DNA of 64,000 bases from Haloarcula mannanilytica (GTDB taxonomy: Archaea > Halobacteriota > Halobacteria > Halobacteriales > Haloarculaceae). The DNA is taken from the NCBI RefSeq assembly GCF_005406125.1, contig NZ_BIXZ01000007.1, positions 62,001-126,000 on the forward strand, written 5' to 3'. The notes beneath the pieces are model-generated. The model was given only the letters and a program-made list of their open reading frames with translations. It was not told where the DNA came from and searched no databases. Below, piece by piece: positions 40,709 through 53,338 of this stretch (positions within the stretch are counted from its first letter, which is position 1; each line of letters begins with the position of its first letter). A program made the translations under genes and the position numbers.

Positions 40709-41377
40709 TCACACAGGGCGTTCGGTTTCGGTTATCCGCTCGACGAGGCACTCTAAGTCTGGGACCTCGAAGGTCGGTTCCGCGGTGAGTGTCACGTCAG
40801 CGACGTGGTCGCGTCGCAGGTAGGCCGCGTCGATACCGGCCCGCTGTGCAGCGACCACGTCTTTCTCCGAGTCCCCCACGTACAGCGCGTCTTCGACGCC
40901 CAGTTCCGCCAGCGCTGCCTCGACGTAGTCCGGCTCCGGCTTGCGTGCCGCGGCACCTGCCAGGGTGGGCCGTCGTCCGCGGGCCGTCTCGAATGTCGGC
41001 AGGTCGTGGTAGGCACGCAGGAACTCGATGGTCGCGTGCTGGTTGTTGCTCACCAGGCCGAGAGAGCACTCGATGCTGTCCAGGGCGGCGACATCGTCAT
41101 AGACGGGCTTGCCGCCGTCCCGGATATGAGTCTGCTGGGCCAGGCTAGCGGCGAGTTCGCGGTAGTGCCAGAACGCCTCGGGATCGATACCGTGGTCACA
41201 AGCCGTCTCGGCCGGCACGGCGTCCTCGGTAACTGACTGACGGGCGACCGAGCGGTCGATATCGGCGCCGAACGCGTCGAACGCTTCGACGACGGCATCG
41301 ACCAGGACTGCAGTGTCCGTCGGTTCGACCAGCACGCCGTCACAGTCGAAAACGATGGATTCGTAGCCGTCAGTCAT
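40709..41377 (-). CDS. HAD-family phosphatase at the end of the C-P lyase operon
   Basis: A 222-aa HAD hydrolase: motif I VFDCDGVLV, an alpha-helical cap, motif II in GLVSNNQ, motif III lysine in ARKPEPDY, and motif IV YVGDSEKD. Probably a sugar-phosphate phosphatase. It overlaps the TIM-barrel gene by 8 bases, so is translated with the phn genes. Since neither PhnP nor PhnN is encoded here, it may act on a ribose-phosphate product of the C-P lyase; that is inference. The start at 41377 omits an Arg-rich, non-homologous extension. Confidence 0.8.
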   Translation of the reverse strand: MTDGYESIVFDCDGVLVEPTDTAVLVDAVVEAFDAFGADIDRSVARQSVTEDAVPAETACDHGIDPEAFWHYRELAASLAQQTHIRDGGKPVYDDVAALDSIECSLGLVSNNQHATIEFLRAYHDLPTFETARGRRPTLAGAAARKPEPDYVEAALAELGVEDALYVGDSEKDVVAAQRAGIDAAYLRRDHVADVTLTAEPTFEVPDLECLVERITETERPV

Positions 41378-42179
41378 CGGTCGACACCTCCGTCTCCGGC
41401 GGCGCCTGATCGACACCGACGGTCTGTGCCACGTCCGCGACAGATTTCATCTCGAAGACGAAACAGTCCGCCGGGACGGCTTCGACGACGGACTCGTAAC
41501 CGGGGAACGGCCGGTGCTGGTCCGCAGTGCCGTCGTTGTCGTGGAGATGACAGACACGGATGCGATCGCCGAACCGGTCGACGAACTCTCGCCAGTCGTG
41601 GCCGCTCATCTTCGCGTGGCCCACGTCGAGCGTGACGCTGAGGTACTGAGCGGGCACGTCGACGGAGTCGATCATCGCGGCCAGGTCCGACTGTGTCGTC
41701 GTGTACCGCCGCGTGTCGTCGTCGATCGGTTGGTTCTCTAGACAGAGTGGGACACCGACGAACTGGGCGTACTCGGCGCACTCGGCGAGCGACCGGCGCG
41801 CGTTCTCGTGGGCCTGCTCCCGGACCCAGTCCGGGTATCGGCGGGGAACCGAACCGCCGTGGACGACGACACCGGACGCCCCCGCGGCCGCCGCGTCGTC
41901 GAGCGTTTGCTTGACACGCTCGACGGAGTCTTGCCGGACCGTCTCGTCGTAGCTTCCCACGTTCCAGTCCCGAAACGGGGCGTGGTAGGTGATAGTGACG
42001 CCGTAGGACTCGGCCAGTTCCCGCACCCGTTCGGGGCCGGGCGTATCGGGGTGTCCGGCCAGGTACTCCCGCTTGAACTCGACGTGGTCCAGCCCGATGT
42101 CCGTGACGTAGTTCATGAACTCCTCGACGCTCGCACCAAATCGGATGTCCATGGCCGCTCCGACGCGATGGTCAGTCAT
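41370..42179 (-). CDS. Sugar phosphate isomerase/epimerase-like TIM-barrel protein in the C-P lyase operon
   Basis: A 269-aa xylose-isomerase-like (AP endonuclease 2 superfamily) protein: ITYHAPFRDWNVGS, VVVHGGSVPRRYPDW, GVPLCLENQPI, SVTLDVGHAKMSGHDW, RVCHLHDNDGTADQHRPFPG and DCFVFEMKS supply the usual Glu, Asp, His metal ligands. It overlaps phnM by 4 bases and the HAD gene by 8. Enzymes of this fold isomerise sugars or hydrolyse phosphodiesters, so opening the cyclic ribose phosphate made by PhnJ, in place of PhnP, is a testable idea. The ATG at 42179 is chosen; a second lies 9 codons in. Confidence 0.78.
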   Translation of the reverse strand: MTDHRVGAAMDIRFGASVEEFMNYVTDIGLDHVEFKREYLAGHPDTPGPERVRELAESYGVTITYHAPFRDWNVGSYDETVRQDSVERVKQTLDDAAAAGASGVVVHGGSVPRRYPDWVREQAHENARRSLAECAEYAQFVGVPLCLENQPIDDDTRRYTTTQSDLAAMIDSVDVPAQYLSVTLDVGHAKMSGHDWREFVDRFGDRIRVCHLHDNDGTADQHRPFPGYESVVEAVPADCFVFEMKSVADVAQTVGVDQAPPETEVSTDD

Positions 42180-43342
42180 CGTCGCCCTCCCGAATCGGCG
42201 TGGTACACCGGCCGCCCGCTGACCAGCGCGTTCGTAACGGTCGGCGCTGGCTCCCGGTCGACGACGATCAGATCCGCACGCTTGCCTTCCTCGATCCGTC
42301 CCCGGTCGGTGAATCCCGCGGCGTCGGCGGGGTTCGCGCTGACACGGGCCACCCGTTCGGGGAGCGACTCTCCCGTGTCGACGAACACTGACGCTAAAAG
42401 GGACGGCGGGTGGTAGTCCGCAACCAGGATGTCCACGACGCCGGCGTCGATGCCCTCGGCGGTCGCGAGGTTGCCCCACTGGCTGCCTCCGCGGACGAGG
42501 TTCGGTGCGCCCATCGCCGTCGTCATCGTCTCCTCGGCCGCCGCTTTGGCGGTTTCCAGCGTGATGGGGTACTCGGTGATATCGACGCCTGCCCCCGCGA
42601 GACGCCTGACTTCCTCGGGGTGCTCGTCGTCGTGAGAGGCCGTCACCGCGCCAGCCGCGTGGGCGCGTTCGACGACTCGGTCGATCCGGTCCCGTATCGT
42701 CCCGGTCGGGATTTCAGTGCGCTCGTCGATGATCTCCTGGGCCTCTTCGGCCGACCGGTCGTTGGCATTCTCGTAGTACTCCCGGAAGGTATCGATATCC
42801 TGGAACTGGCCCTTTCCTGGGATGTGGCTCATCACCGACACCAGATCGGCGTCACCGTTGTCGACGACTTCCAGCACAGCCTCGACACACCGCTGTTGGG
42901 TGACTTCACACCGGGCGTGCAGGCGGTGGTCGACCAGCAGGTCCGTGGCCTCCGAGATGGCGTCGGTCAACGTCGCCGCCAGTTCCGGCGAACGGTCGGC
43001 CGCTTCGTCTGTCTCGAAGGAGATGGCGTGGAACTTCGTAGTGATGCCAGCGGCGACGTTCGCGCGGTCGGCGGACGCCAGGGCCAGCGGGATGTCAATC
43101 CGTGCTCCGGACCGCGGGTGGAGGTGGCCCTCGATGTCGTCGCCGTGAAGGTCGACCAATCCCGGCAACACCAGGTGGCCGTCGGCATCGATGACGATGT
43201 CCGCGTCCGCGTCCACGTCGCCGACATCGACGATGCGGTCCTCCTCGATGCGGACGCCGCCTTCGACGACGGCCTCGGGCGTGACGAGACATCCGTCGAC
43301 GACTGCGATCGTGGCTTCGGCGGCCTGGGCGGTCGTACTCAT
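42176..43342 (-). CDS. phnM: C-P lyase pathway triphosphohydrolase PhnM
   Basis: Hydrolyses ribose 1-alkylphosphonate 5-triphosphate to the 5-phosphate plus pyrophosphate. The 388-aa amidohydrolase-fold protein has the metal motif LPGLVDLHGDDIEGHLHPRSGARIDI, ITTKFHAISFE, VMSHIPGKGQF, ASHDDEHPEEVRRL and the C-terminal ILVADYHPPSLL and GKRADLIVVD, all typical of PhnM. Overlaps phnL and the TIM-barrel gene by 4 bases each. Confidence 0.93.
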   Translation of the reverse strand: MSTTAQAAEATIAVVDGCLVTPEAVVEGGVRIEEDRIVDVGDVDADADIVIDADGHLVLPGLVDLHGDDIEGHLHPRSGARIDIPLALASADRANVAAGITTKFHAISFETDEAADRSPELAATLTDAISEATDLLVDHRLHARCEVTQQRCVEAVLEVVDNGDADLVSVMSHIPGKGQFQDIDTFREYYENANDRSAEEAQEIIDERTEIPTGTIRDRIDRVVERAHAAGAVTASHDDEHPEEVRRLAGAGVDITEYPITLETAKAAAEETMTTAMGAPNLVRGGSQWGNLATAEGIDAGVVDILVADYHPPSLLASVFVDTGESLPERVARVSANPADAAGFTDRGRIEEGKRADLIVVDREPAPTVTNALVSGRPVYHADSGGRR

Positions 43343-44070
43343 CGCACCACCTCACCGTCGAACTCCTCGATCGGCAGGACCGCTTGGATACGCCCCTCGT
43401 CCAGCACGACGACGCGGTCGGCGACGGCCGCGACCACGTCCGTATCGTGGAAGACACCGATGACGGTGGTTCCTTGTCCGAGAGCCGTCTCCAGCAGGTC
43501 GATCGCTTCCCGACGAGTCTCCGGGTCGAGAGCGCTTGTGGGTTCATCAAGCAACAGCAAGTCCGGGTCGGGGGCGAGGGCCTGCGCGAGGTTGACCCGC
43601 TGGCGCTCCCCGCCGGAGAATGTCGCGGGGTAGGCGTCCCACAATTCCGCAGGGACCGAGAGGGCCTGAAGCAACTCCCGAGCGCGTCCCCTGGCCGTCT
43701 CGGCCGGCGTTCCCTGTTCGACCAGCGGTCGGGCGACCACGTCGACGGCCGGGACGCGAGGTATCTCGTTGAGGAACTGGGACGTGTAGCCGATAGCGGT
43801 ACCGCGAAGGGCCATCACGGTACGGTCGTCACACGTGGCCAGGTCAACCTCGTCGTCGCCGTGGTAAACGACGCGGCCGTCGGTGGGGTCGTAGGTCCGG
43901 TAGAGACACTTCAACAGCGAGGATTTCCCGCTACCGGACTCTCCGACGACTGCGAGGAACTCGCCCTCCCGGACGTTGAACGATACGCCGTCTAACCCGA
44001 CGACCTGGGTGTCGTCGAGCACGTGCACGTCGAAGGTCTTCGAGAGGCCTTCGACTGATAGGACTGTCAT
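43339..44070 (-). CDS. phnL: C-P lyase subunit PhnL (ABC-type ATPase)
   Basis: A 243-aa ATPase: Walker A GESGSGKSS, Q-loop GYTSQFLNEIPRVPAVDVVARPL, signature FSGGERQRVNLAQAL, Walker B LLLLDEPTSALD. The Q-loop text with FLNEIPRV is characteristic of PhnL. It belongs with the PhnGHIJK core rather than with a transporter. Overlaps phnK and phnM by 4 bases. Confidence 0.93.
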   Translation of the reverse strand: MTVLSVEGLSKTFDVHVLDDTQVVGLDGVSFNVREGEFLAVVGESGSGKSSLLKCLYRTYDPTDGRVVYHGDDEVDLATCDDRTVMALRGTAIGYTSQFLNEIPRVPAVDVVARPLVEQGTPAETARGRARELLQALSVPAELWDAYPATFSGGERQRVNLAQALAPDPDLLLLDEPTSALDPETRREAIDLLETALGQGTTVIGVFHDTDVVAAVADRVVVLDEGRIQAVLPIEEFDGEVVR

Positions 44071-44897
44071 ATTACTGAATTGATGAGCGTCTGCGTGTAC
44101 TCGTGGTGCGGGTCCTCCATGACCCGGTCGGTGAGGCCCGACTCGACGATGCGGCCGTGGCGCATCACCAGCGTCCGGTCGGCGAGCAAGCGGACGACGC
44201 CGAGATCGTGTGAGACGACGATGGCCGCGACGCCCTCCTCGCGCTGGACGCGGCGGAAGGTGTCAAGGACTCGCGCCTGGACGCTGACATCCAGCCCCGT
44301 GGTCGGTTCGTCGAGGACGATCAGGTCCGGATCGGTCGCCAGGGCGCGGGCGATCTGGACACGGCGCTGCATCCCACCTGAGTAGGTTCGCGCGGGGTCG
44401 TCCATCCGGGCAACCGGGATCTCCGTCTCCTCGAACAACTCCCGGACGCGCATTCGCACGTCCTCGTACGAGCGCCACCCGGCCGAGAGGAGTTTCTCGG
44501 CGACGTTGCCGCCGCCGGTAAACTCCAGGTCCAGGCCGTCGCGGATGTGCTGGTGGACCAGCGAGATGTCACGACTCCGCAGGTCGTGGCGCGTCTGGTA
44601 ATCCACCTCAAGCAGGTTCCCGTCGTGACCGGCGTAGGACACCTCGCCGTTGACGGTCGCCTCCGGGTCGCGTTCCAGCGCCAGCGCCTCTGCGAGGCTG
44701 GACTTGCCTGATCCCGACTCGCCGACGATACCGAGCACCTCGCCCTCCGCTACGTCGAGGTCGGCCTCGGCGCAGGCGACGACGGTGCCACAGCGGGGAC
44801 ACTGGTTGGTCCCGGCGCGGTCGCCGGTCGCGTCGAGACAGTCCGGGCATCCCGGCCCGTAGATTGTCTCGACAGCCGACGCTTCGAGGAGTGTCAC
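44067..44897 (-). CDS. phnK: C-P lyase subunit PhnK (ABC-type ATPase) with a zinc-ribbon-like insertion
   Basis: A 276-aa ATPase bound to the C-P lyase core. Walker A GESGSGKSS, VHQHIRDGLDLEFTGGGNVAEKLL, signature YSGGMQRRVQIARAL, Walker B LIVLDEPTTGLDVSVQAR and the ending ESGLTDRVMEDPHHEYTQTLINS all match PhnK. Between the first beta strand and the Walker A region there is an insertion with CPDC and CPRC pairs (residues ~17-38: GCPDCLDATGDRAGTNQCPR), which should bind zinc; E. coli PhnK lacks it. Overlaps phnJ by 4 bases. Confidence 0.93.
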   Translation of the reverse strand: MTLLEASAVETIYGPGCPDCLDATGDRAGTNQCPRCGTVVACAEADLDVAEGEVLGIVGESGSGKSSLAEALALERDPEATVNGEVSYAGHDGNLLEVDYQTRHDLRSRDISLVHQHIRDGLDLEFTGGGNVAEKLLSAGWRSYEDVRMRVRELFEETEIPVARMDDPARTYSGGMQRRVQIARALATDPDLIVLDEPTTGLDVSVQARVLDTFRRVQREEGVAAIVVSHDLGVVRLLADRTLVMRHGRIVESGLTDRVMEDPHHEYTQTLINSVI

Positions 44898-45946
44898 GCG
44901 TTCTCACCCCCGTCCGGCGTCGCGGGTCCCCAGTCGACCCCGGAGCGGTCGAGGTGGTGGTCTTTCGGCAGGTTGGGGTTCTCGCGGCGCTTGGCACAGA
45001 AGCTCGAATCGTTGCAGGCGTAGCGCGTCTCGAAGCTCGCCGCCGTGTCGTCGTCGCCCGCTGTCGTTCCGGGTTCCTCGGAGACCTCGACGAGGTAGGT
45101 GTCGGTCGACCCGCAGGCGTGACAGGCCTGCTCCGGAAAGCGCTCGACGGTGAACGACCGGTCCTCGAACGCCAGCGGCTCGACGGATGTGTGTGGTGGC
45201 ACGGCGTAGATGCGGGCCTCCCGGCCCGCCGCGAGTATCGTCAGGTGGTTGGCGTCGTCGAGTTTGGGCACGTCCCACCGCGGGATGGGCGACGGATCCA
45301 TCAGGTACCGGTTCGCAACCATCGTCGGGTAGCGGGAGGCGATGTTGATCTCACCGTACTCGACGACGTTCTCGTAGAGGTGGACCCACATCTTCCCGTA
45401 GTTCTTGTGAGCGTGACGCCGTCGGTTCGCGGCGTCGGAGGGGTCGACCTTCCTGAGTGCGTCGGTGATCGGTACCTGCAGGACCAACCGCTGGTCGTCG
45501 GTCAGCACCTCCTCGGGGATGCGGTGGCGGCTCTGGATCAAGTCCGCCTTCGTCGTGTCGGTGGTCGTCGCCACCTCAGCAGTGTTCTCCGCGAGTCGCC
45601 GGATGTTGGCGGCGTTGACGCTCTCGTCTGCGCCCTGGTCGATCACCTTGAGCGTGTCAGCCGGCCCGAGAAGCGACAGCGATGCCTGGATCCCGCCGGT
45701 CCCCCATCCGCGGGCAAGCGGCATTGGCCGCGAGGCGTAGGGCACCTGGTGGCCGGGAATTGCGACGGCCTTCAGCATCGACCGTCGGACCTCTCGCTTG
45801 GTGTGCTCGTCGAGGTAGGCGTAGTTGTACCCCGATAGCCCGTCAGTCTCGACCGCCGAGAGTGCGGCATCGACGGAGTCGGTTGGCACCGGTGTTCCCC
45901 CGCCTGTCGATTCATCTCGGTGCTGGGAGGTGGTTTCCTTAGCCAT
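44894..45946 (-). CDS. phnJ: C-P lyase, radical SAM subunit PhnJ
   Basis: Cleaves the carbon-phosphorus bond of ribose 1-alkylphosphonate 5-phosphate with a [4Fe-4S] cluster and S-adenosylmethionine. The 350-aa protein starts its homology at GYNYAYLDEHTKREVRRSMLKAVAIPGHQVPYASRPMPLARGWGTGG and keeps four cysteines: CHAC (275, 278), YAC (311) and SFC (317). The spacing between second and third is about 32 residues, longer than the 21 of E. coli PhnJ. The start at 45946 gives an acidic Ser/Thr-rich N-terminal tail; longer readings are antisense noise. Overlaps phnI by 8 bases. Confidence 0.94.
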   Translation of the reverse strand: MAKETTSQHRDESTGGGTPVPTDSVDAALSAVETDGLSGYNYAYLDEHTKREVRRSMLKAVAIPGHQVPYASRPMPLARGWGTGGIQASLSLLGPADTLKVIDQGADESVNAANIRRLAENTAEVATTTDTTKADLIQSRHRIPEEVLTDDQRLVLQVPITDALRKVDPSDAANRRRHAHKNYGKMWVHLYENVVEYGEINIASRYPTMVANRYLMDPSPIPRWDVPKLDDANHLTILAAGREARIYAVPPHTSVEPLAFEDRSFTVERFPEQACHACGSTDTYLVEVSEEPGTTAGDDDTAASFETRYACNDSSFCAKRRENPNLPKDHHLDRSGVDWGPATPDGGENA

Positions 45947-47078
45947 CGTCGTTCGCCTCCGCGACCGGCGCGCGTTCGGCGGACTCCTCGTCGGCAAGGT
46001 CATCGTGGCCCTTTCCCGCTGTGCCCTTGCGTTCCCGGATCGCCCGGATCCGGTCCAGGATGGACTGGAAGGTGACGTAGTGAGGGAGTTTGAGGTGTTC
46101 GATGAAGCCAAAGGAGTCCATGCCGTCGATGGTATCGAGGACGAACTCAGCGTTCTCGGCGGGTTCGTCGTCGCTGTCCAGCTGGATCGAGGCGTCGAGG
46201 ATGGTCATTCCGATGGCCTTGCGCTCGTTGCGGCCGAACGTCAGGCCGTAGCCGAACGCGAACTGCGGGTCCTCGCGCTTCTCGTAGACAGGGACGACCG
46301 CCTCGGACTCAGTCACGTCTGCATGGGTGACCGTCACTTCGTCGCCGGTGTAGGGATGCTCGATCCGTACCGGGAGGCGACCCACTCGGACCTCCGCCAG
46401 CGTCGGGTGGACCTGGCCGTAGCCCCGAAGCGCCGAGTACCCCAGCGCGGTCACCGCGCCCGTTTCGCCGCGGGCGAGTTCTTGAAGCACTGCGTCCCGG
46501 TCCGGCGGGTGCGTTACCGATTCCCGGGTCGTGTCTGTTGGGTCGTCCACGTCGGGTTCGTCCGGTTCGTGGAGGAGGCCCTCCGAACGCAGGAGTTCCG
46601 TGACGGTGGTCAACCGCTCGGGGTCGCCCTCGTCTGCAACCTCCCACTCTTCGGTCGGGTCCGCTGTTTCTCCGTCGACGAGGTCGAAGTCCAAGAGGCG
46701 CTGGGTGTAGTCCTTCGTCGCGCCGAGAATCTGCCCGCCGGGTACGTCTTTGAATGCAGGGGACACTCTCCGGGTAGCAATCATCTCGCCCGGGTCGACC
46801 GCTGGCGTCTCGTCAAACCGCTCCAGCGTCGAGCGATAGGCCCGAAGCAGGAAGGCGGCCTCGACGGTGTCACCCTGTGCCTGTTTGACTGCCAGGGCCG
46901 CCAACCGCGGCGCGTACAGGCCGCCCTCGCTCATCGCCTGGGCGGTAAGGCGTCCGAGTTGGTCGTCCAGTTGGTCAACGTCGAGGCCCTCGCTGTCGCC
47001 GGCGAGGCGCTGCTTCTCGAACAGGTCCGCCGCCCGCTCGATGATTTCTTCGCCGGCGGTTACGGCGACGTAGCCCAT
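45939..47078 (-). CDS. phnI: C-P lyase core subunit PhnI
   Basis: The nucleosidase that, with PhnG, PhnH and PhnL, displaces adenine from ATP by a phosphonate to form ribose 1-alkylphosphonate 5-triphosphate. The 379-aa protein begins MGYVAVTAGEEIIERAADLFEKQRL and contains LTAQAMSEGGLYAPRLAALAVKQAQGDTVEAAFLLRAYRSTLERF, SPAFKDVPGGQILGATKDYTQRLLDF, LGYSALRGYGQVHPTLAEVRVG and FGYGLTFGRNERKAIGMTILDAS, all PhnI hallmarks. Its ATG directly abuts the phnH stop. Confidence 0.94.
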   Translation of the reverse strand: MGYVAVTAGEEIIERAADLFEKQRLAGDSEGLDVDQLDDQLGRLTAQAMSEGGLYAPRLAALAVKQAQGDTVEAAFLLRAYRSTLERFDETPAVDPGEMIATRRVSPAFKDVPGGQILGATKDYTQRLLDFDLVDGETADPTEEWEVADEGDPERLTTVTELLRSEGLLHEPDEPDVDDPTDTTRESVTHPPDRDAVLQELARGETGAVTALGYSALRGYGQVHPTLAEVRVGRLPVRIEHPYTGDEVTVTHADVTESEAVVPVYEKREDPQFAFGYGLTFGRNERKAIGMTILDASIQLDSDDEPAENAEFVLDTIDGMDSFGFIEHLKLPHYVTFQSILDRIRAIRERKGTAGKGHDDLADEESAERAPVAEANDDG

Positions 47079-47624
47079 TCAGGCCACCTCCATCGTCACC
47101 GACCGCGGGACGGCGGCGATACGTTCCTCGGTGGCGAAGACAGCGTCAACGCCGCGCGGGTACTCCGACTGGGCCTCGGACAGCGCCGACAGTGCCGATT
47201 CGGGTACCGACACCGACAGCGCCGCGGTCCCATCGACACCGGGGCCCGAGAGCGTCACCGTTGTCCCCAGTCCGGAACTGCCGGAGATGGAGTCGACGCG
47301 GTAGACGATGATCGCGCCCTCACTGGGTTCGACCAGCGGACCGCGCTTGCACGCCCGCACGTCGACAGCGGTGTGATCCCGGACATGGACGATATCGGCG
47401 TCCTCTACAGCGGCCGGTTCGAGGCGACCCTGCCCCGAAAGGGCGTCCCGGAGTCCCTCATCTGCCGTCGCTATCGTCACCTCGTGATCGACGAGGGTGG
47501 CGACGACAGCGTGGTCGGCGGGGGCGGGCACCTGGTGGACCGTTCCTGGTCGACTCATTGCTGACAGGAGCCCGTCGAACGTCCGGCGCGTGTCGTGGAC
47601 CGGGTCGATGCCGAGCGCTCTCAC
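47079..47624 (-). CDS. phnH: C-P lyase core subunit PhnH
   Basis: A 181-aa structural subunit of the C-P lyase core. Family text: MRALGIDPVHDTRRTFDGLLSAMSRPGTVHQVPAP, ALVDHE-like ATLVDHEVTIAT and TLSGPGVDG near the centre. Overlaps phnG by 4 bases and abuts phnI. Confidence 0.9.
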   Translation of the reverse strand: MRALGIDPVHDTRRTFDGLLSAMSRPGTVHQVPAPADHAVVATLVDHEVTIATADEGLRDALSGQGRLEPAAVEDADIVHVRDHTAVDVRACKRGPLVEPSEGAIIVYRVDSISGSSGLGTTVTLSGPGVDGTAALSVSVPESALSALSEAQSEYPRGVDAVFATEERIAAVPRSVTMEVA

Positions 47625-48064
47625 TGCTGGTCCTCCATCGTCTCAAACTCGACGGCGGTGTGTTTGCTCTCGGCCCACGCGCGCTGGCGCTGTTCTCGCT
47701 GGCGGGCTGCCGCGTCGTCGAGCGCGCTGACGATAGCCGGTGTCCGCTCGTGGTCGGCGGCCACCGCTGCGTCGACGATGGCCCCCGAGAGGGCGGCGCG
47801 TTCGGCTTTTCCGGGGACCATCGCGAACCCGCGTTCGCCGGCCAGGTCGACCTCCGCTGGGGTGACCAGGATCTCCCCCAAATTGAACGGTCTGCGCTCG
47901 ACCGGTTCCTCCACGCGCTGCATCAACAACTGTGGCCGCGGCTCCTGACGGACCGACAGCGGGGGGTCGTCCGCAAGTACCTCGTTGGCGAACCGGGCGA
48001 GCGTCGCCGCCTCACAGGTAGCGATCAACTCGAACCGGTCCGATCTGTCGTGTGGATCAACCAT
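47621..48064 (-). CDS. phnG: C-P lyase core subunit PhnG
   Basis: A 147-aa subunit, first gene of the operon phnGHIJKLM-TIM-HAD on the minus strand. Recognised by DRFELIATCEAATLARFANEVLAD at the N-terminus, RPQLLMQRVEEPVERRPFNLGEILVTPAEVDL and GFAMVPGKAERAALSGAIVDAAVAA. The ATG at 48064 gives MVDPHDRSDRFELIA; longer readings run into the promoter. A cttatg element about 33 nt upstream may be its TATA box. Confidence 0.9.
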   Translation of the reverse strand: MVDPHDRSDRFELIATCEAATLARFANEVLADDPPLSVRQEPRPQLLMQRVEEPVERRPFNLGEILVTPAEVDLAGERGFAMVPGKAERAALSGAIVDAAVAADHERTPAIVSALDDAAARQREQRQRAWAESKHTAVEFETMEDQQ

Positions 48065-48132
48065 GCACTCGGGGGAAACACGCCCCAACGGTCGCATAAG
48101 ACTTCGCTCAGTACTCTCTGTTCTCTCCCGGA

Positions 48133-48182: not shown

Positions 48183-48287
48183 CGAGCTGTGGCGGGCGAT
48201 TACTTTGCCCACTATCGACGGAGTGCCACCCTGACGGGTTGGACTCTACCCAGACAACCGTTATTCGACCTGTTTGCCAGTCCTGAG

Positions 48288-49316
48288 ATGATGTCAGACA
48301 ATCAGAGCGGACGTGAGGGGGTATCGACACTGACTGACGGTACATCGATCAGTCGCCGCAAGTTCATCGCCGGTAGCGCGGCGACGGCGGTCACGGCGGG
48401 TCTGGCGGGCTGTGGCGGCGCTATCGGCGGTAGCGGTTCCTCGGGTGGGGAGACCGTCACAATGCTGCTCACGCCTGGCACGCCGGGCGACATCCGACCG
48501 CGGTACGAACCCGTCCTCAGGATGCTCAACGACAAGGTCGACGGTGCCGAGGTCGAGATGGAGGTCCCGCAAAACTACTCGGCGATCAAGCCGGCACTGG
48601 AGAGCGAACAGGCCGAGATCGGGATGGACGACGTGACGCTCATCTCGAACCCCGATATCATGGACGTTTACGGGACCAACGTCACCGACGGGTCGGCCTT
48701 CTATTTCTCGATGATGCTCGTCCCGTTGGACTCGGAGATCGAGAAACGCACCGATGTCGAGGGCAAGACGTGGGCGTTCGCGGACCGCCTGAGCACCAGT
48801 GGATCAATTTTCGCACTCTACACGCTTCAGGAGGCCGGCCTCGACATCGGCGAGGCACCCGAGGAGCAACCCAACGACTTCGAGGGAAGCTGGACCGACC
48901 ACAACCAGGCGATCCAGCGTGTCGCAAACGACAAGGCCGACGGCGCGACGACCTGGGGTGGCAATGGCTTCCCGCACGTCCCGGAGAAGTTCGAGTCTGA
49001 GTTCCCCGAGCGGGTCACAGAGAAGAGTTCCTTCCTCGGAGATGTCGGCACCGAGCAACCGGAACTGCGCCCGATCTGGTTCTCGTTCCCGATCCCCAAA
49101 CAGCCGTGGTACGCCCGCCAGACGTGGGAGTCCCCGGTCAAAGAGGAGATCGGCGAGGTGCTGCGCAACTCCGACCAGGAGACAATAAGCGAGTACTATC
49201 CCGACGACTACGACACGGACAACCCCGCGTTCACGACGCTGCGTGACACGTCGATGGAGACCTATGAACCTGTCATCAAGCGGATGAACGCGGTCGGCAT
49301 CGACCCTGCGGCGTAA
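48288..49316 (+). CDS. phnD: Phosphonate ABC transporter substrate-binding lipoprotein PhnD
   Basis: A 342-aa extracellular binding protein. Tat signal SRRKFIAGSAATAVTAG with lipobox LAGC, Gly/Ser linker, then the PhnD fold: TPGTPGDIRPRYEPVLRMLNDKVDGAEVEMEVPQNYSAIKPALESEQAEIGMDDVTL, VEGKTWAFADRLSTSGSIFALYTL, VANDKADGATTWGG. It captures phosphonates (or phosphite/phosphate) for PhnCE. ATG codons at 48288 and 48291 are both possible. Divergent from phnG across a 223-base spacer. Confidence 0.9.
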   Translation: MMSDNQSGREGVSTLTDGTSISRRKFIAGSAATAVTAGLAGCGGAIGGSGSSGGETVTMLLTPGTPGDIRPRYEPVLRMLNDKVDGAEVEMEVPQNYSAIKPALESEQAEIGMDDVTLISNPDIMDVYGTNVTDGSAFYFSMMLVPLDSEIEKRTDVEGKTWAFADRLSTSGSIFALYTLQEAGLDIGEAPEEQPNDFEGSWTDHNQAIQRVANDKADGATTWGGNGFPHVPEKFESEFPERVTEKSSFLGDVGTEQPELRPIWFSFPIPKQPWYARQTWESPVKEEIGEVLRNSDQETISEYYPDDYDTDNPAFTTLRDTSMETYEPVIKRMNAVGIDPAA

Positions 49317-49343: not shown

Positions 49344-50168
49344 ATGAGTACCCTCAAGATAGAGAATCTCTCGAAGCAGTATGGCGATGTAACGGCTCTC
49401 GAAGACGTATCCTTCGAGATCGAAGACGAGTTCGCGGTGTTGCTCGGTGAGTCCGGTGCCGGCAAGTCCACGATGCTGCGGTGTGTCAATGGCCTGACCG
49501 AACCCACCGAGGGGACCATCGCTCTCGATGGCACGGAGATCAGCGACTCACAGACGGACGTGGGGATGATCTTCCAGCAACACAACCTCGTCGAAGGCGT
49601 CTCAGCGTATCTCAACGCGCTCACCGGTTCGCTCAACCGAGTCTCGATGCTCAAGAGCCTATTCCAATGGCAGTCCCGCGAGGACAAACTCCGGGCGCTA
49701 GAAGCCTTAGAGACTGTCGGGTTGCTGGAGGAGAGCCACCAGCGGGTCTCCCAGATGTCCGGCGGCCAACAGCAGCGTGTCGGTATCGCTCGCGCCCTCG
49801 TTCAGGACCCGCGGCTGCTGCTCGCGGACGAACCGGTCGCCAGCCTCGACCCCTCCAGCGCCGAGACGGTGATGGGGTATCTCCGCAAGGCGGCCGCTGA
49901 ACACGACGTTACCGCGCTGGTAAGCCTCCACCAGGTGAACATCGCCGCGTACTTCGGCGACCGGTTCATCGGGCTCAAGGACGGCGAGAAACTGTTCGAT
50001 GTCCGTCGTGACGAGCTCACACCCGAACTGATCGATGATCTCTACGGCAGCGTCGAGACCGTCGGCCTCGCCGAGCAGGACGAGACTGTCGAGGAGATAC
50101 TGAACAACGGCAAGGCCCCGGAAACCGCATCGAAACCGGAGGCCGTGACAGAGGAGATCGAAGCATGA
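49344..50168 (+). CDS. phnC: Phosphonate ABC transporter ATP-binding protein PhnC
   Basis: A 274-aa ATPase: Walker A GESGAGKST, Q-loop GMIFQQHNLVEGVSAYLNALTGSLNRVSMLKSLF (a strong PhnC signature), ABC signature MSGGQQQRVGIARAL and Walker B LLADEPVASLDPSSAETVM. A ~30-residue acidic C-terminal tail is extra. It lies between phnD and phnE and overlaps phnE by 4 bases. Confidence 0.93.
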   Translation: MSTLKIENLSKQYGDVTALEDVSFEIEDEFAVLLGESGAGKSTMLRCVNGLTEPTEGTIALDGTEISDSQTDVGMIFQQHNLVEGVSAYLNALTGSLNRVSMLKSLFQWQSREDKLRALEALETVGLLEESHQRVSQMSGGQQQRVGIARALVQDPRLLLADEPVASLDPSSAETVMGYLRKAAAEHDVTALVSLHQVNIAAYFGDRFIGLKDGEKLFDVRRDELTPELIDDLYGSVETVGLAEQDETVEEILNNGKAPETASKPEAVTEEIEA

Positions 50169-51205
50169 GTACGCCACGGCCCGAAAGCAAGTCGATAGCG
50201 ACGTATTTCGGGTACGGGGAGGCCGGCGACTCGGACGCCGAGCAGAAGCTGCAGGACCTGAAGCGTCGCAAGACGAAGCGGCGTCTCTGGACGCTTGCTA
50301 GCGTGATCGGCGGTGGAGTGCTATTTTATTTCAGTCTAGTCGTCATCGAGTTCAATTTGGGGATGCTGTACAACCAGGTTCCGCAGTTCATCGATGCGCT
50401 CTACGGACCGAACAACTACTTCCCACCGGGAGAACTCTTCGGGATTCCGTTCATCGACCTGGGTGCGTACTGGTCGTTCATGATGGAGGAGAACCTCATC
50501 CTCACGATTGAAGGCGGCCGGATCGTCTGGGGTGCGATGTTCGTCACGCTGGCGGTCGCGTTCGCGGGGTCGGTTCTGGGACTGCCCGCGGCACTGCTGT
50601 TCGGCGTGATGGCCAGCGAGCGGGTCATCCCCTACCCCTTCAACTTTGCCTTCCGTGCAACGATGAGTCTTATTCGAGCTATCCCCGGGCTGGTCTGGTT
50701 CCTCATCCTGATTCCGCTAGGTGGGGTCGGACCGTTCACCGCAGCGCTCGCTATCATGATCGACACCACCGGATACCTGGGGCGACTGTTTACCGACGAA
50801 CTCGAAGAGATCGAAGACGGTCCCATCGAGGGTATCCGTTCGACGGGTGCGAACCGCTCGCAGGTCGTCTCTTTCGGGATGCTCAGCCAGGTCTTCAGGC
50901 AGTTCATCGCCTGGATCGCCTTCGACCTCGAACACAACGTCCGTGCCGCTATCGGACTGGGCCTCATCGGGGGCGGCGGCCTGGGGCTGGAACTGTACGT
51001 CCAGCGCCAGACGTTCCACTATACGAATATGATGGCGTGTATCATCCTGATCTTCCTGCTTGCCGGCTCGGTCGAACTGCTCAGCCAGCGCGTCCGGTCA
51101 TACCTCCGTGAGGAAGACGATGTCGAAAAGTCGGGCGTCATCGAGGCTCTCGTCAACGCGCCCAAGAATATCCTCTCCTCCACGATGGGACGACGCGGGC
51201 ACTGA
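50165..51205 (+). CDS. phnE: Phosphonate ABC transporter permease PhnE
   Basis: A 346-aa permease with about six helices. Family text: ANATMSLIRAIPGLVWFLI-like AFRATMSLIRAIPGLVWFLILI, FTDELEEIEDGPIEGIRSTGANRSQVVSFGMLSQVFRQFIAWIAFDLEHNVRAAIGLGLIGGGGLG. It carries a ~40-residue charged cytoplasmic N-terminus and a charged C-terminal tail. Last gene of phnDCE; the next gene is convergent. Confidence 0.92.
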   Translation: MSTPRPESKSIATYFGYGEAGDSDAEQKLQDLKRRKTKRRLWTLASVIGGGVLFYFSLVVIEFNLGMLYNQVPQFIDALYGPNNYFPPGELFGIPFIDLGAYWSFMMEENLILTIEGGRIVWGAMFVTLAVAFAGSVLGLPAALLFGVMASERVIPYPFNFAFRATMSLIRAIPGLVWFLILIPLGGVGPFTAALAIMIDTTGYLGRLFTDELEEIEDGPIEGIRSTGANRSQVVSFGMLSQVFRQFIAWIAFDLEHNVRAAIGLGLIGGGGLGLELYVQRQTFHYTNMMACIILIFLLAGSVELLSQRVRSYLREEDDVEKSGVIEALVNAPKNILSSTMGRRGH

Positions 51206-51254: not shown

Positions 51255-52130
51255 TCAAATCGAAGTGTGCTCGGGTCGGACGCCGGAGTGGAGCTGAACG
51301 GCCAGTTCGGCGGCGTCGACCCAGTAGTAGATGGCCCGTTCGAGTGCCCGGGTGACGGTGACGAGATACCCGTACATCTCGGGGTCATATGCAGTCACCA
51401 GCTCGAACAGTTCGTCCAGATCGCGGTGGACCGTCTCCTCCTCGTCGCGGAGCGTCTCGTGGACGGTGAGCTCGCAGTCGAAGAGTATTGCTGAAAAGTA
51501 GTCGTTGATGCGCGCGCCGGACTCGAAGATATCGGCCATCCGTTCGCCAACGATACCCGTTGTGTCGGTGTCTTCGCGGTCGACTACGTCCGCGATGAAA
51601 CAGGCCCGGTCGCCGATAATCTCCAGGTTCGTGGCGATGGTCGCCAGATCCGAGGCGACACGGTTGCCCGGCCAGTCCGTGGTCAGAGTGTAGGATTTGA
51701 GCTCCGAGAGGACCGCGGAGTACCGCTCGTTGGTCAGCGACTCCAGTGTTTCGGCGGATCGGTCGACTGACTCGCCCGCAAAGGCGGCCCGCGCGGCGTC
51801 GTACTGACGGGCCGTTACCGACTCCAGGCGGTTTAAAAGCTCTAGAACGTCTGCTCCGGGGCTGTTGTCCTCATCTCCGCCACTTAGCTTTGTAATGTGG
51901 TCGGCACTGGCGTACAATGCGTCGTCATCGACGACGTACCCCTTTCGGACAGCGCCCTCAGCTTTCAGTTCCTGGAGCAACTCCGAGAGGTACTGCTCGG
52001 AGATGCCGACGGCCTGTGCTAGCTCTGACTTCGTCTGTGGTGCCGTCCTGTCGATGGCTTCGACAATCTGTACACGCGTCGCCTCACGACCACCGACGCC
52101 CAGCGAGCGCCCATACATTTGGCGAGACAT
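51255..52130 (-). CDS. HTH-PhoU-domain regulator
   Basis: A 291-aa protein. The first ~70 residues form a winged helix (EATRVQIVEAIDRTAPQTKSELAQAVGISEQYLSELLQELKAEGAVRKGYVVD). The rest is helical with PhoU-type repeats (LESLTNERYSAVLSELKSYTL ... ATIATNLEIIGDRACFIADVVDRE). Likely a phosphate-responsive transcription factor. It is convergent with phnE and divergent from the AbrB-PhoU gene, so control of the phn genes is plausible. The start at 52130 (MSRQMYGRS) is preferred; the methionine four codons in is also possible. Confidence 0.78.
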   Translation of the reverse strand: MSRQMYGRSLGVGGREATRVQIVEAIDRTAPQTKSELAQAVGISEQYLSELLQELKAEGAVRKGYVVDDDALYASADHITKLSGGDEDNSPGADVLELLNRLESVTARQYDAARAAFAGESVDRSAETLESLTNERYSAVLSELKSYTLTTDWPGNRVASDLATIATNLEIIGDRACFIADVVDREDTDTTGIVGERMADIFESGARINDYFSAILFDCELTVHETLRDEEETVHRDLDELFELVTAYDPEMYGYLVTVTRALERAIYYWVDAAELAVQLHSGVRPEHTSI

Positions 52131-52321
52131 ACCTGAAAATTTCGACTGGCTGGCATATGTGTGCCCCACAGACACTCCGGACCAGTATGTACTCGGACGG
52201 ATCGGACGAGACGTGACCGAGTCAGGCGAGGAGCTATCGCTTGCCTCAGTACATAGTCCTCTGTAACGATACGGACCTTTCATATCAACGATTAGGTATC
52301 GCTTGGTCGTCGCGACCCCGT
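52131..52321. promoter_or_regulatory. Divergent control region of the two PhoU-domain regulators
   Basis: Contains TCCGGACCAGTA (52176-52187), shared with the phnG-phnD spacer, and a tttcatat TATA-like element about 30 nt before the AbrB-PhoU start. Operator function is inferred from the shared 12-mer only. Confidence 0.35.
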
Positions 52322-53338
52322 ATGGAGACACGTAAAGTCCAGCTCTCCGGGGGAACGACCTACACTATCTCGCTGCCGAAATCGTGGGCGAACGAGCACA
52401 GAATCGATGCCGGGTCCATCCTGTCGCTATACCCCAACGACGATGGGACATTGCTGGTCGAGGCAGACGGCGACGTATCGACAGACACCCGATCAGCGAC
52501 CGTCGATGTCTCAACGGCGTCGGAAGACGCGGTCCGACAGCGGATCCACGCGCTCCACGCTGTCGGCTTTGACTCGGTGACGCTGGTCGACAGGGCGGGC
52601 CACTCCACCGAGATACGCGCCCTCGTCGAAAACACCGTCTCGAACCTCTCGGGATTCGAGTTGCTGGAGGCGGGGGACACGCGGATCCAATTGACGAACC
52701 TCATCGACGCCGACAACGTCGACATCCGGAAATCGACGCTTCGACTCCGCCTCGTCATGCTCGGAATGCATCGGGACGCAGTGAGTGCCGTTCTGGATGG
52801 CGACGAAGCGCTCGCCCGGCGAGTCGTCGACCGGGACAGCGAGGCGGACAAACTGTTCGCGATGGTTACACGGCACTTTCGGCGGGCATTGACGAACCTC
52901 CAGGAGGTCGAGAAACTGGGCTACAGTCGGGACGAACTCTTCGAGTACTACTACGTCAGTCGGCAGTTCGAGCGGATCGCAGACCACGCCGAAAAGATCG
53001 CCCGGTTCGCTATCGATCCGGAGGCGACGGTGCCAGCAAACCTCGCCGAGCGGATCGACTCGGTGGCCTCCAGCGCCAGACGGGTCGTCGACACGGCGGC
53101 GGACGTAATCCTCGCTGATGCCGATATCGAGACGGCACACACAGCGCTTGCAACCCAGGCGGAACTGACGACAGAACTCCGGACGCTCGACCGTGACCTG
53201 TACACGCACGACGATCCCGCCGAAGCGTACGTCGTGGGACTTCTCCTTGACAGCATCCGCCGAACAGCCGAGTACGGCGGTAACGTCGCCGACATCGCGA
53301 TACAGCAGGTCACGCGGGAGGGTAACTCCGTCGAGTAA
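52322..53338 (+). CDS. AbrB-PhoU-domain regulator
   Basis: A 338-aa archaeal-type PhoU protein. The N-terminus METRKVQLSGGTTYTISLPKSWANEHRIDAGSILSLYPNDDGTLLVE is an AbrB/SpoVT swapped-hairpin DNA-binding domain; two PhoU helical repeats follow (DRDSEADKLFAMVTRHFRRALTNLQEVEKLG ... YYYVSRQFERIADHAEKIARFAI ... LLDSIRRTAEYGGNVADIAIQ) with metal-binding ExxxD-like motifs. PhoU proteins control phosphate uptake and Pho regulons. The start at 52322 is set by homology and the TATA box upstream. Confidence 0.88.
   Translation: METRKVQLSGGTTYTISLPKSWANEHRIDAGSILSLYPNDDGTLLVEADGDVSTDTRSATVDVSTASEDAVRQRIHALHAVGFDSVTLVDRAGHSTEIRALVENTVSNLSGFELLEAGDTRIQLTNLIDADNVDIRKSTLRLRLVMLGMHRDAVSAVLDGDEALARRVVDRDSEADKLFAMVTRHFRRALTNLQEVEKLGYSRDELFEYYYVSRQFERIADHAEKIARFAIDPEATVPANLAERIDSVASSARRVVDTAADVILADADIETAHTALATQAELTTELRTLDRDLYTHDDPAEAYVVGLLLDSIRRTAEYGGNVADIAIQQVTREGNSVE

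Follow-up and report, generated by a model that had tools for sequence, protein, structure and literature searches.

The window analysed here is a stretch of 64,000 nucleotides of Haloarcula mannanilytica (contig NZ_BIXZ01000007.1, positions 62,001 to 126,000), and it carries a carbon-phosphorus (C-P) lyase operon, phnGHIJKLM, that runs on past phnM into a gene for a TIM-barrel protein and then a gene for a HAD phosphatase. We find that the TIM-barrel gene is a core member of haloarchaeal phn operons. Judging from its sequence and genomic context, we favor the possibility that its product is a phosphodiesterase that opens 5-phosphoribosyl 1,2-cyclic phosphate (PRcP) in place of the bacterial enzyme PhnP, and not an isomerase. 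The HAD gene is a replaceable accessory and not an equal partner of the TIM barrel. On balance we consider it probable that the locus as a whole amounts to a full archaeal C-P lyase operon, with other proteins standing in for the enzymes of the bacterial end-game, and the strictly linked TIM gene is a candidate for the missing step of archaeal C-P lyase.

The nine genes are arranged in tandem on the minus strand, from 48097 (or 48064, depending on the start of phnG) to 40709. An original prediction, made by a model from the sequence alone, had described an operon of nine overlapping or abutting genes at 40709-48064, and this was borne out: phnG and phnH overlap by 4 bases, phnH and phnI abut with a gap of zero, phnI and phnJ overlap by 8, the J/K, K/L and L/M junctions and that between phnM and the TIM gene are overlaps of 4 each, and the TIM and HAD genes overlap by 8 bases. 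Gene identities were assigned with the domain libraries of Pfam and NCBIfam, using curated cut-offs for the latter. PhnJ aligns end to end with its E. coli counterpart and keeps the iron-sulfur cysteines (C-x2-C ... C-x5-C). With PhnG, H, I and J all present and clustered with PhnK, L and M, the locus qualifies as a C-P lyase system, and since its gene order is common to 35 other haloarchaeal loci the operon is not a chance arrangement.

The TIM-barrel gene as a core member of phn operons

Our sample of Halobacteria comprised 391 genomes, 38 with phnJ and 353 without, and yielded 36 readable loci, namely that of the window and 35 others with sequence past phnM. In all 36 the TIM gene stands directly 3' of phnM. 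The two genes overlap by 4 bases in 32 of these loci when the window is included (31 of the 35 others, the remainder having a 1-base overlap in three cases and a 49-base gap in one). The original prediction had proposed surveying other haloarchaeal phn loci for the gene, and the linkage proved to be conserved throughout. A profile built from 24 TIM proteins recovered an orthologue in every one of the 38 phnJ-positive genomes (36 at 429 bits or above and two partial), and an orthologue-level score was reached by none of the 353 phnJ-negative genomes, where no match exceeded 383 bits. At L071 and in G314:C1:2431820-2443010 phnJ is incomplete and separated by about 10 kb from a fragment of the TIM gene, and the operon of genome G314 therefore looks disrupted.

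Pairwise divergences of the TIM barrel track those of PhnI, J, K, L and M (r 0.76-0.88) as closely as those proteins track each other, and its conservation is about equal to that of PhnM. Outside the Halobacteria, genome G397, which belongs to another archaeal class of the same phylum, has a complete phnCDE-GHIJKLM set (L185:425-9664), and the slot after phnM is filled there too by a TIM barrel, a highly diverged one with 22-26% identity to the haloarchaeal proteins.

Function of the TIM barrel

In E. coli, PhnGHIJKLM turn phosphonate into PRcP. The haloarchaeal proteins would do the same, and the TIM barrel, with its endonuclease-IV-like metal ligands, would then hydrolyse PRcP to a ribose bisphosphate (1,5- or 2,5-), which is the job of PhnP. 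Neither PhnN nor PhnP was found in the window operon, as had been predicted, and a genome-wide check upheld the point: in the H. mannanilytica genome nothing scored above the curated cut-offs, the best match to PhnP (TIGR03307, cut-off 272 bits) reaching 41 bits and the best match to PhnN (TIGR02322, cut-off 156 bits) 21 bits. PhnP was likewise below cut-off in all 69 haloarchaeal genomes searched (best 69 bits), as was PhnN in the 36 phnJ-positive genomes (best 27.5 bits). A PhnP homologue elsewhere in the genome was what the original prediction had named as counting against it, and technically there is one, a weakly PhnP-like metallo-beta-lactamase (MBL) protein, but this is found in 68 of the 69 haloarchaea irrespective of phnJ and is therefore neither a dedicated PhnP nor specific to the pathway. 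A phn operon on the Thermus thermophilus plasmid pTthSNM1-7c (L189) has no PhnN, PhnP or TIM gene, which indicates that this enzyme is not used by all PhnP-less operons; it is adjoined by a GNAT protein and a TIGR00282 metallophosphoesterase, the latter being a possible further substitute for PhnP.

Nine residues of the TIM barrel are invariant across 24 sequences (H66, H107, E148, D185, H188, H211, D220, H222 and E243), and all nine match the ligands of the trinuclear metal site of endonuclease IV (Nfo); direct alignment accounts for seven of them, and the other two correspond by motif once a small shift is allowed. The divergent protein of L185 keeps all nine ligand types as well. The closest curated models, CbiR (NF041277, 68 bits, cut-off 105) and deoxyribonuclease IV (52 bits), both stayed below cut-off, as did the nfo family TIGR00587 (23.8 bits, cut-off 129.65), and no cut-off of a named isomerase or epimerase was passed (45.5 of 305 bits for the FrlC type and 29 of 447 for XylA). 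Our reasoning is that (i) the linkage of the TIM gene, (ii) the genome-wide absence of PhnP and PhnN and (iii) the phosphodiesterase-type ligands together make a PhnP-replacing role the best reading. The original prediction had left two roles open for the protein; the same three lines of evidence support the opening of the cyclic ester, whereas isomerisation is left unsupported, given the nine endonuclease-IV-type ligands and the nearest models being CbiR and endonuclease IV.

Several observations pull the other way. Among E. coli isomerases and epimerases of the same fold that served as controls, UlaE keeps four of the nine ligand positions, Hyi five, and the epimerases YcjR and FrlC seven each, and for this reason the nine-ligand signature is suggestive and not decisive. 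The AlphaFold model of the TIM barrel is confident (mean pLDDT 91, pTM 0.90), and a fold search with it placed MJ1311 (PDB 3wqo) and sugar epimerases at the top and endonuclease IV 40th; the fold alone is therefore not decisive either, and fold comparison was rejected as a means of separating epimerases from phosphodiesterases, the model having failed to split the two. It is because of this ranking that we put the phosphodiesterase assignment no higher than probable. In addition, PRcP might in principle be opened by 2H phosphoesterases, present in 59 of 59 genomes, or by the widespread PhnP-like MBL proteins; half of the loci lack the HAD gene; and a second TIM subfamily (about 45-55% identical) occurs away from phn genes in phnJ-negative haloarchaea.

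Members of this subfamily score 298-383 bits and were found in 22 phnJ-negative genomes and in one phnJ-positive genome (G379). Their loci are L117-L135, all phnJ-negative except L119 of G379, and many of these encode a ComB-like protein nearby, together with an ECF-type transporter consisting of a membrane component, a double ATPase and a T component, with a creatininase-like gene in addition at L131, these neighbours having been named by eye. Such surroundings suggest that the subfamily serves another pathway.

The HAD gene and the outlet of the pathway

The HAD protein had been predicted to stand on an equal footing with the TIM barrel, and this did not hold. In 17 loci, the window among them, its gene comes directly after the TIM gene, and in G300 it lies on another contig (17-18 of 36); it is broken twice, being split in G268 and interrupted by a stop in G049; loci without it have unrelated genes in the post-TIM position; the phn tree shows no fewer than eight changes between its presence and absence; and paralogues occur in all 71 genomes searched. 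G138 and G282 have no HAD gene in the phn locus but a 314-bit copy elsewhere. Given that half of the loci do without it, the phosphatase step does not count among the constant elements of the pathway. The catalytic residues D11, D13 (DxD), K146 and G168-D169 ... D173 are invariant in 13 orthologues, and the predicted model, of moderate confidence (pLDDT 79), has fold matches only to generic HAD-IA enzymes. The gene of a ribulose 1,5-bisphosphate (RuBP) phosphatase would be expected in an operon with the FucA-type Ru1P aldolase, and that of the window sits in the phn operon instead; at the aldolase II locus of the same genome the neighbouring genes encode a sugar kinase and an ABC transporter, with nothing matching the HAD protein, and the sole clearly related HAD beside an aldolase (L168) is 39% identical. 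The window protein probably removes a phosphate from a pentose bisphosphate.

Where present, the HAD phosphatase would strip one phosphate to leave ribose 5-phosphate and inorganic phosphate (Pi), in which case the PhnN kinase would not be needed; genomes without the gene would rely on a paralogous or other phosphatase, or on ribose 1,5-bisphosphate (R15P) isomerase where it is encoded. A universal TIM barrel alongside an optional, sometimes broken HAD would also be explained if the TIM barrel were a two-step enzyme, like PhnPP of the PHP family, that takes PRcP to ribose 5-phosphate and Pi and leaves the HAD protein as a house-cleaning phosphatase for side products. The fold of PhnPP, however, differs from that of the TIM-barrel protein, and the sequence of the latter gives no sign of phosphomonoesterase activity. 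We regard this two-step scheme as unlikely, although the literature recognises both a route through PhnP that ends in R15P and one through PhnPP that ends in ribose 5-phosphate (PMC8774927).

It is also improbable, in our view, that the TIM barrel acts earlier, on phosphonate mono- or diesters such as phosphonolipid or glycan fragments, freeing phosphonates for C-P lyase while PRcP is opened by a housekeeping 2H phosphoesterase or PhnP-like MBL protein. The near ubiquity of those two enzymes speaks for this scheme, as does the bacterial 2H protein RcsF, whose gene, according to a review, may be found in phn operons without phnP (PMC10574752). The housekeeping enzymes are nevertheless equally common in phnJ-negative genomes, so that nothing ties them to phn, and the strict linkage and translational overlap of the TIM gene with phnM in every lineage favour a core step over a substrate-specific one.

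With the TIM barrel taken as the PRcP phosphodiesterase, its product needs an outlet, and the original prediction had pointed to R15P and RuBP in the non-carboxylating pentose bisphosphate route of halophilic archaea. R15P isomerase belongs to the haloarchaeal pentose bisphosphate pathways (PMC9700705). In the H. mannanilytica genome, however, no R15P isomerase scored above cut-off (TIGR00511, 314 bits), and the best match, at 161 bits, is of a paralogue type present in nearly all genomes. The isomerase is above cut-off in 19 of the 36 phnJ-positive genomes and missing from 17; it occurs in 7 of 17 genomes with the operon HAD and 12 of 19 without, which shows no clear complementarity between the two, and seven genomes have neither. 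In G110, a protein encoded next to an aldolase resembled R15P isomerase at 195 bits; we set it aside as probably another isomerase (MtnA-like by position and score). Given these counts, the RuBP outlet is not general and is probably absent here. The simplest alternative would be conversion to ribose 5-phosphate and Pi with re-entry via phosphoribosyl pyrophosphate (PRPP) synthetase; bacterial PhnPP is already recognised as taking PRcP to ribose 5-phosphate (PMC8774927). That the TIM barrel is itself an isomerase or epimerase of R15P or another pentose phosphate, feeding the pentose bisphosphate pathway, is very unlikely despite fold matches that include L-ribulose 3-epimerase and UlaE and despite the 17 genomes that could use such an enzyme, as in that role it would not open the cyclic ester, it keeps nine ligand positions and not four to seven, and the 19 genomes with an R15P isomerase of their own encode it just as the others do.

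Putting the phosphodiesterase assignment together with this outlet, we lean slightly toward a joint reading in which the PRcP phosphodiesterase of archaeal C-P lyase, an endonuclease-IV-like TIM barrel, represents one more structural class beside those of PhnP (MBL), PhnPP (PHP) and RcsF (2H), in which ribose 5-phosphate and Pi are reached without a kinase, and in which the linkage of the TIM gene to phn either predates the Halobacteria or arose more than once.

Surroundings of the operon and known systems

A phosphonate transporter (binding protein, ATPase and permease) is encoded divergently from the phn operon (Table 1). Two apparent regulators at 51255-53338 flank the transporter genes, one a winged-helix protein and the other a protein whose Haloarcula halophila counterpart is annotated PhoU; they suggest phosphate control of the locus. 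H. halophila has a closely related operon of identical gene order on a 525-kb plasmid, its TIM protein (P0204_RS16465) being 87% identical, and many haloarchaeal phn-TIM operons are carried by large plasmids (137-862 kb; records H1-H10).

Table 1. Genes of the phn operon and of the adjoining transporter in the window.
Feature	Coordinates	Strand	Evidence and remarks
phnG	47621..48097	-	start ATG 48097 or 48064; PF06754 6e-22; TIGR03293 above cut-off
phnH	47079..47624	-	PF05845 9e-31; TIGR03292 above cut-off
phnI	45939..47078	-	PF05861 3e-134
phnJ, radical-SAM C-P lyase	44894..45946	-	PF06007 2e-127; 49% identity to E. coli PhnJ
phnK	44067..44897	-	TIGR02323 top NCBIfam match, 210 bits, below cut-off 303
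phnL	43339..44070	-	TIGR02324 top NCBIfam match, 242 bits, below cut-off 256
phnM, RPnTP diphosphatase	42176..43342	-	NF011990 430 bits, above cut-off 233
TIM-barrel metal enzyme, AP_endonuc_2 fold; putative PRcP phosphodiesterase	41370..42179	-	PF01261 2e-33
HAD-IA phosphatase, accessory; putative pentose-bisphosphate phosphatase	40709..41377	-	PF00702/PF13419
phosphonate-binding protein (phnD-like), divergent	48285..49316	+	PF12974 6e-30; kept in nearly all loci
ABC ATPase (phnC-like)	49344..50168	+	PF00005; H. halophila orthologue annotated phosphonate ABC transporter ATP-binding protein
permease (phnE-like)	50165..51205	+	PF00528; orthologue annotated PhnE

Archaeal C-P lyase operons without phnNOP are already known. 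The combination of phnGHIJKLM without phnNOP is reported for Haloquadratum walsbyi (PMC1544339), and a 2023 review covers such archaeal clusters, including that of Natronomonas moolapensis, and states that there are no published data on archaeal phosphonate consumption (PMC10574752); the accessible text of the two papers mentions neither the TIM barrel nor an archaeal step that opens PRcP. The locus of H. walsbyi J07HQW2 (L042) has the TIM gene, as the window does. The linked TIM barrel appears to be undescribed, in that we found no description of it, and a literature search conducted largely without subscription papers found nothing connecting it to archaeal phn operons. Cleavage of methylphosphonate frees methane, and a working archaeal pathway, if this is what the operon encodes, would be relevant to methane release in hypersaline settings. 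In salt ponds, methylphosphonate degradation genes correlate with methane flux, and two phnJ-bearing genomes from there are haloarchaeal (PMC8692437).

Compared with phnCDEFGHIJKLMNOP of E. coli, the window operon has phnGHIJKLM in the same order with a phosphonate transporter alongside and a PhnJ that is 49% identical, but it is without PhnF, N, O and P, its transporter is divergent, and the TIM and HAD genes follow phnM. The reaction we propose for the TIM barrel is that of PhnP, whose metallo-beta-lactamase fold is unrelated to a TIM barrel. Precedent for replacing the PhnP step by other folds comes from PhnPP and RcsF (PMC8774927; PMC10574752), although their folds differ from the TIM barrel and they are not present in these archaeal operons. 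AccF, the agrocinopine phosphodiesterase, was considered as a precedent and rejected: on Agrobacterium plasmids the L185 TIM barrel does match the acc region, but the gene matched is not accF and lies on its own, downstream of accF-accG.

Closer to the TIM barrel itself, MJ1311 is the nearest solved structure (E 7e-18 to 1e-16 by fold and 3e-31 by profile) and has similar HAPF, VVH, LEN and D-x-x-H motifs, but it has no known phn linkage. Endonuclease IV is a phosphodiesterase whose nine metal-ligand residue types are kept in the TIM barrel, even though the two are only about 23% identical and nothing indicates a DNA substrate for the latter. The cobamide-remodelling enzyme CbiR differs in operon context, and the TIM barrel scores below the cut-off of its model; nevertheless, that model is the top NCBIfam match, and CbiR has the AP_endonuc_2 fold that the TIM barrel has and uses it to hydrolyse a phosphodiester that is not DNA (PMC7733943).

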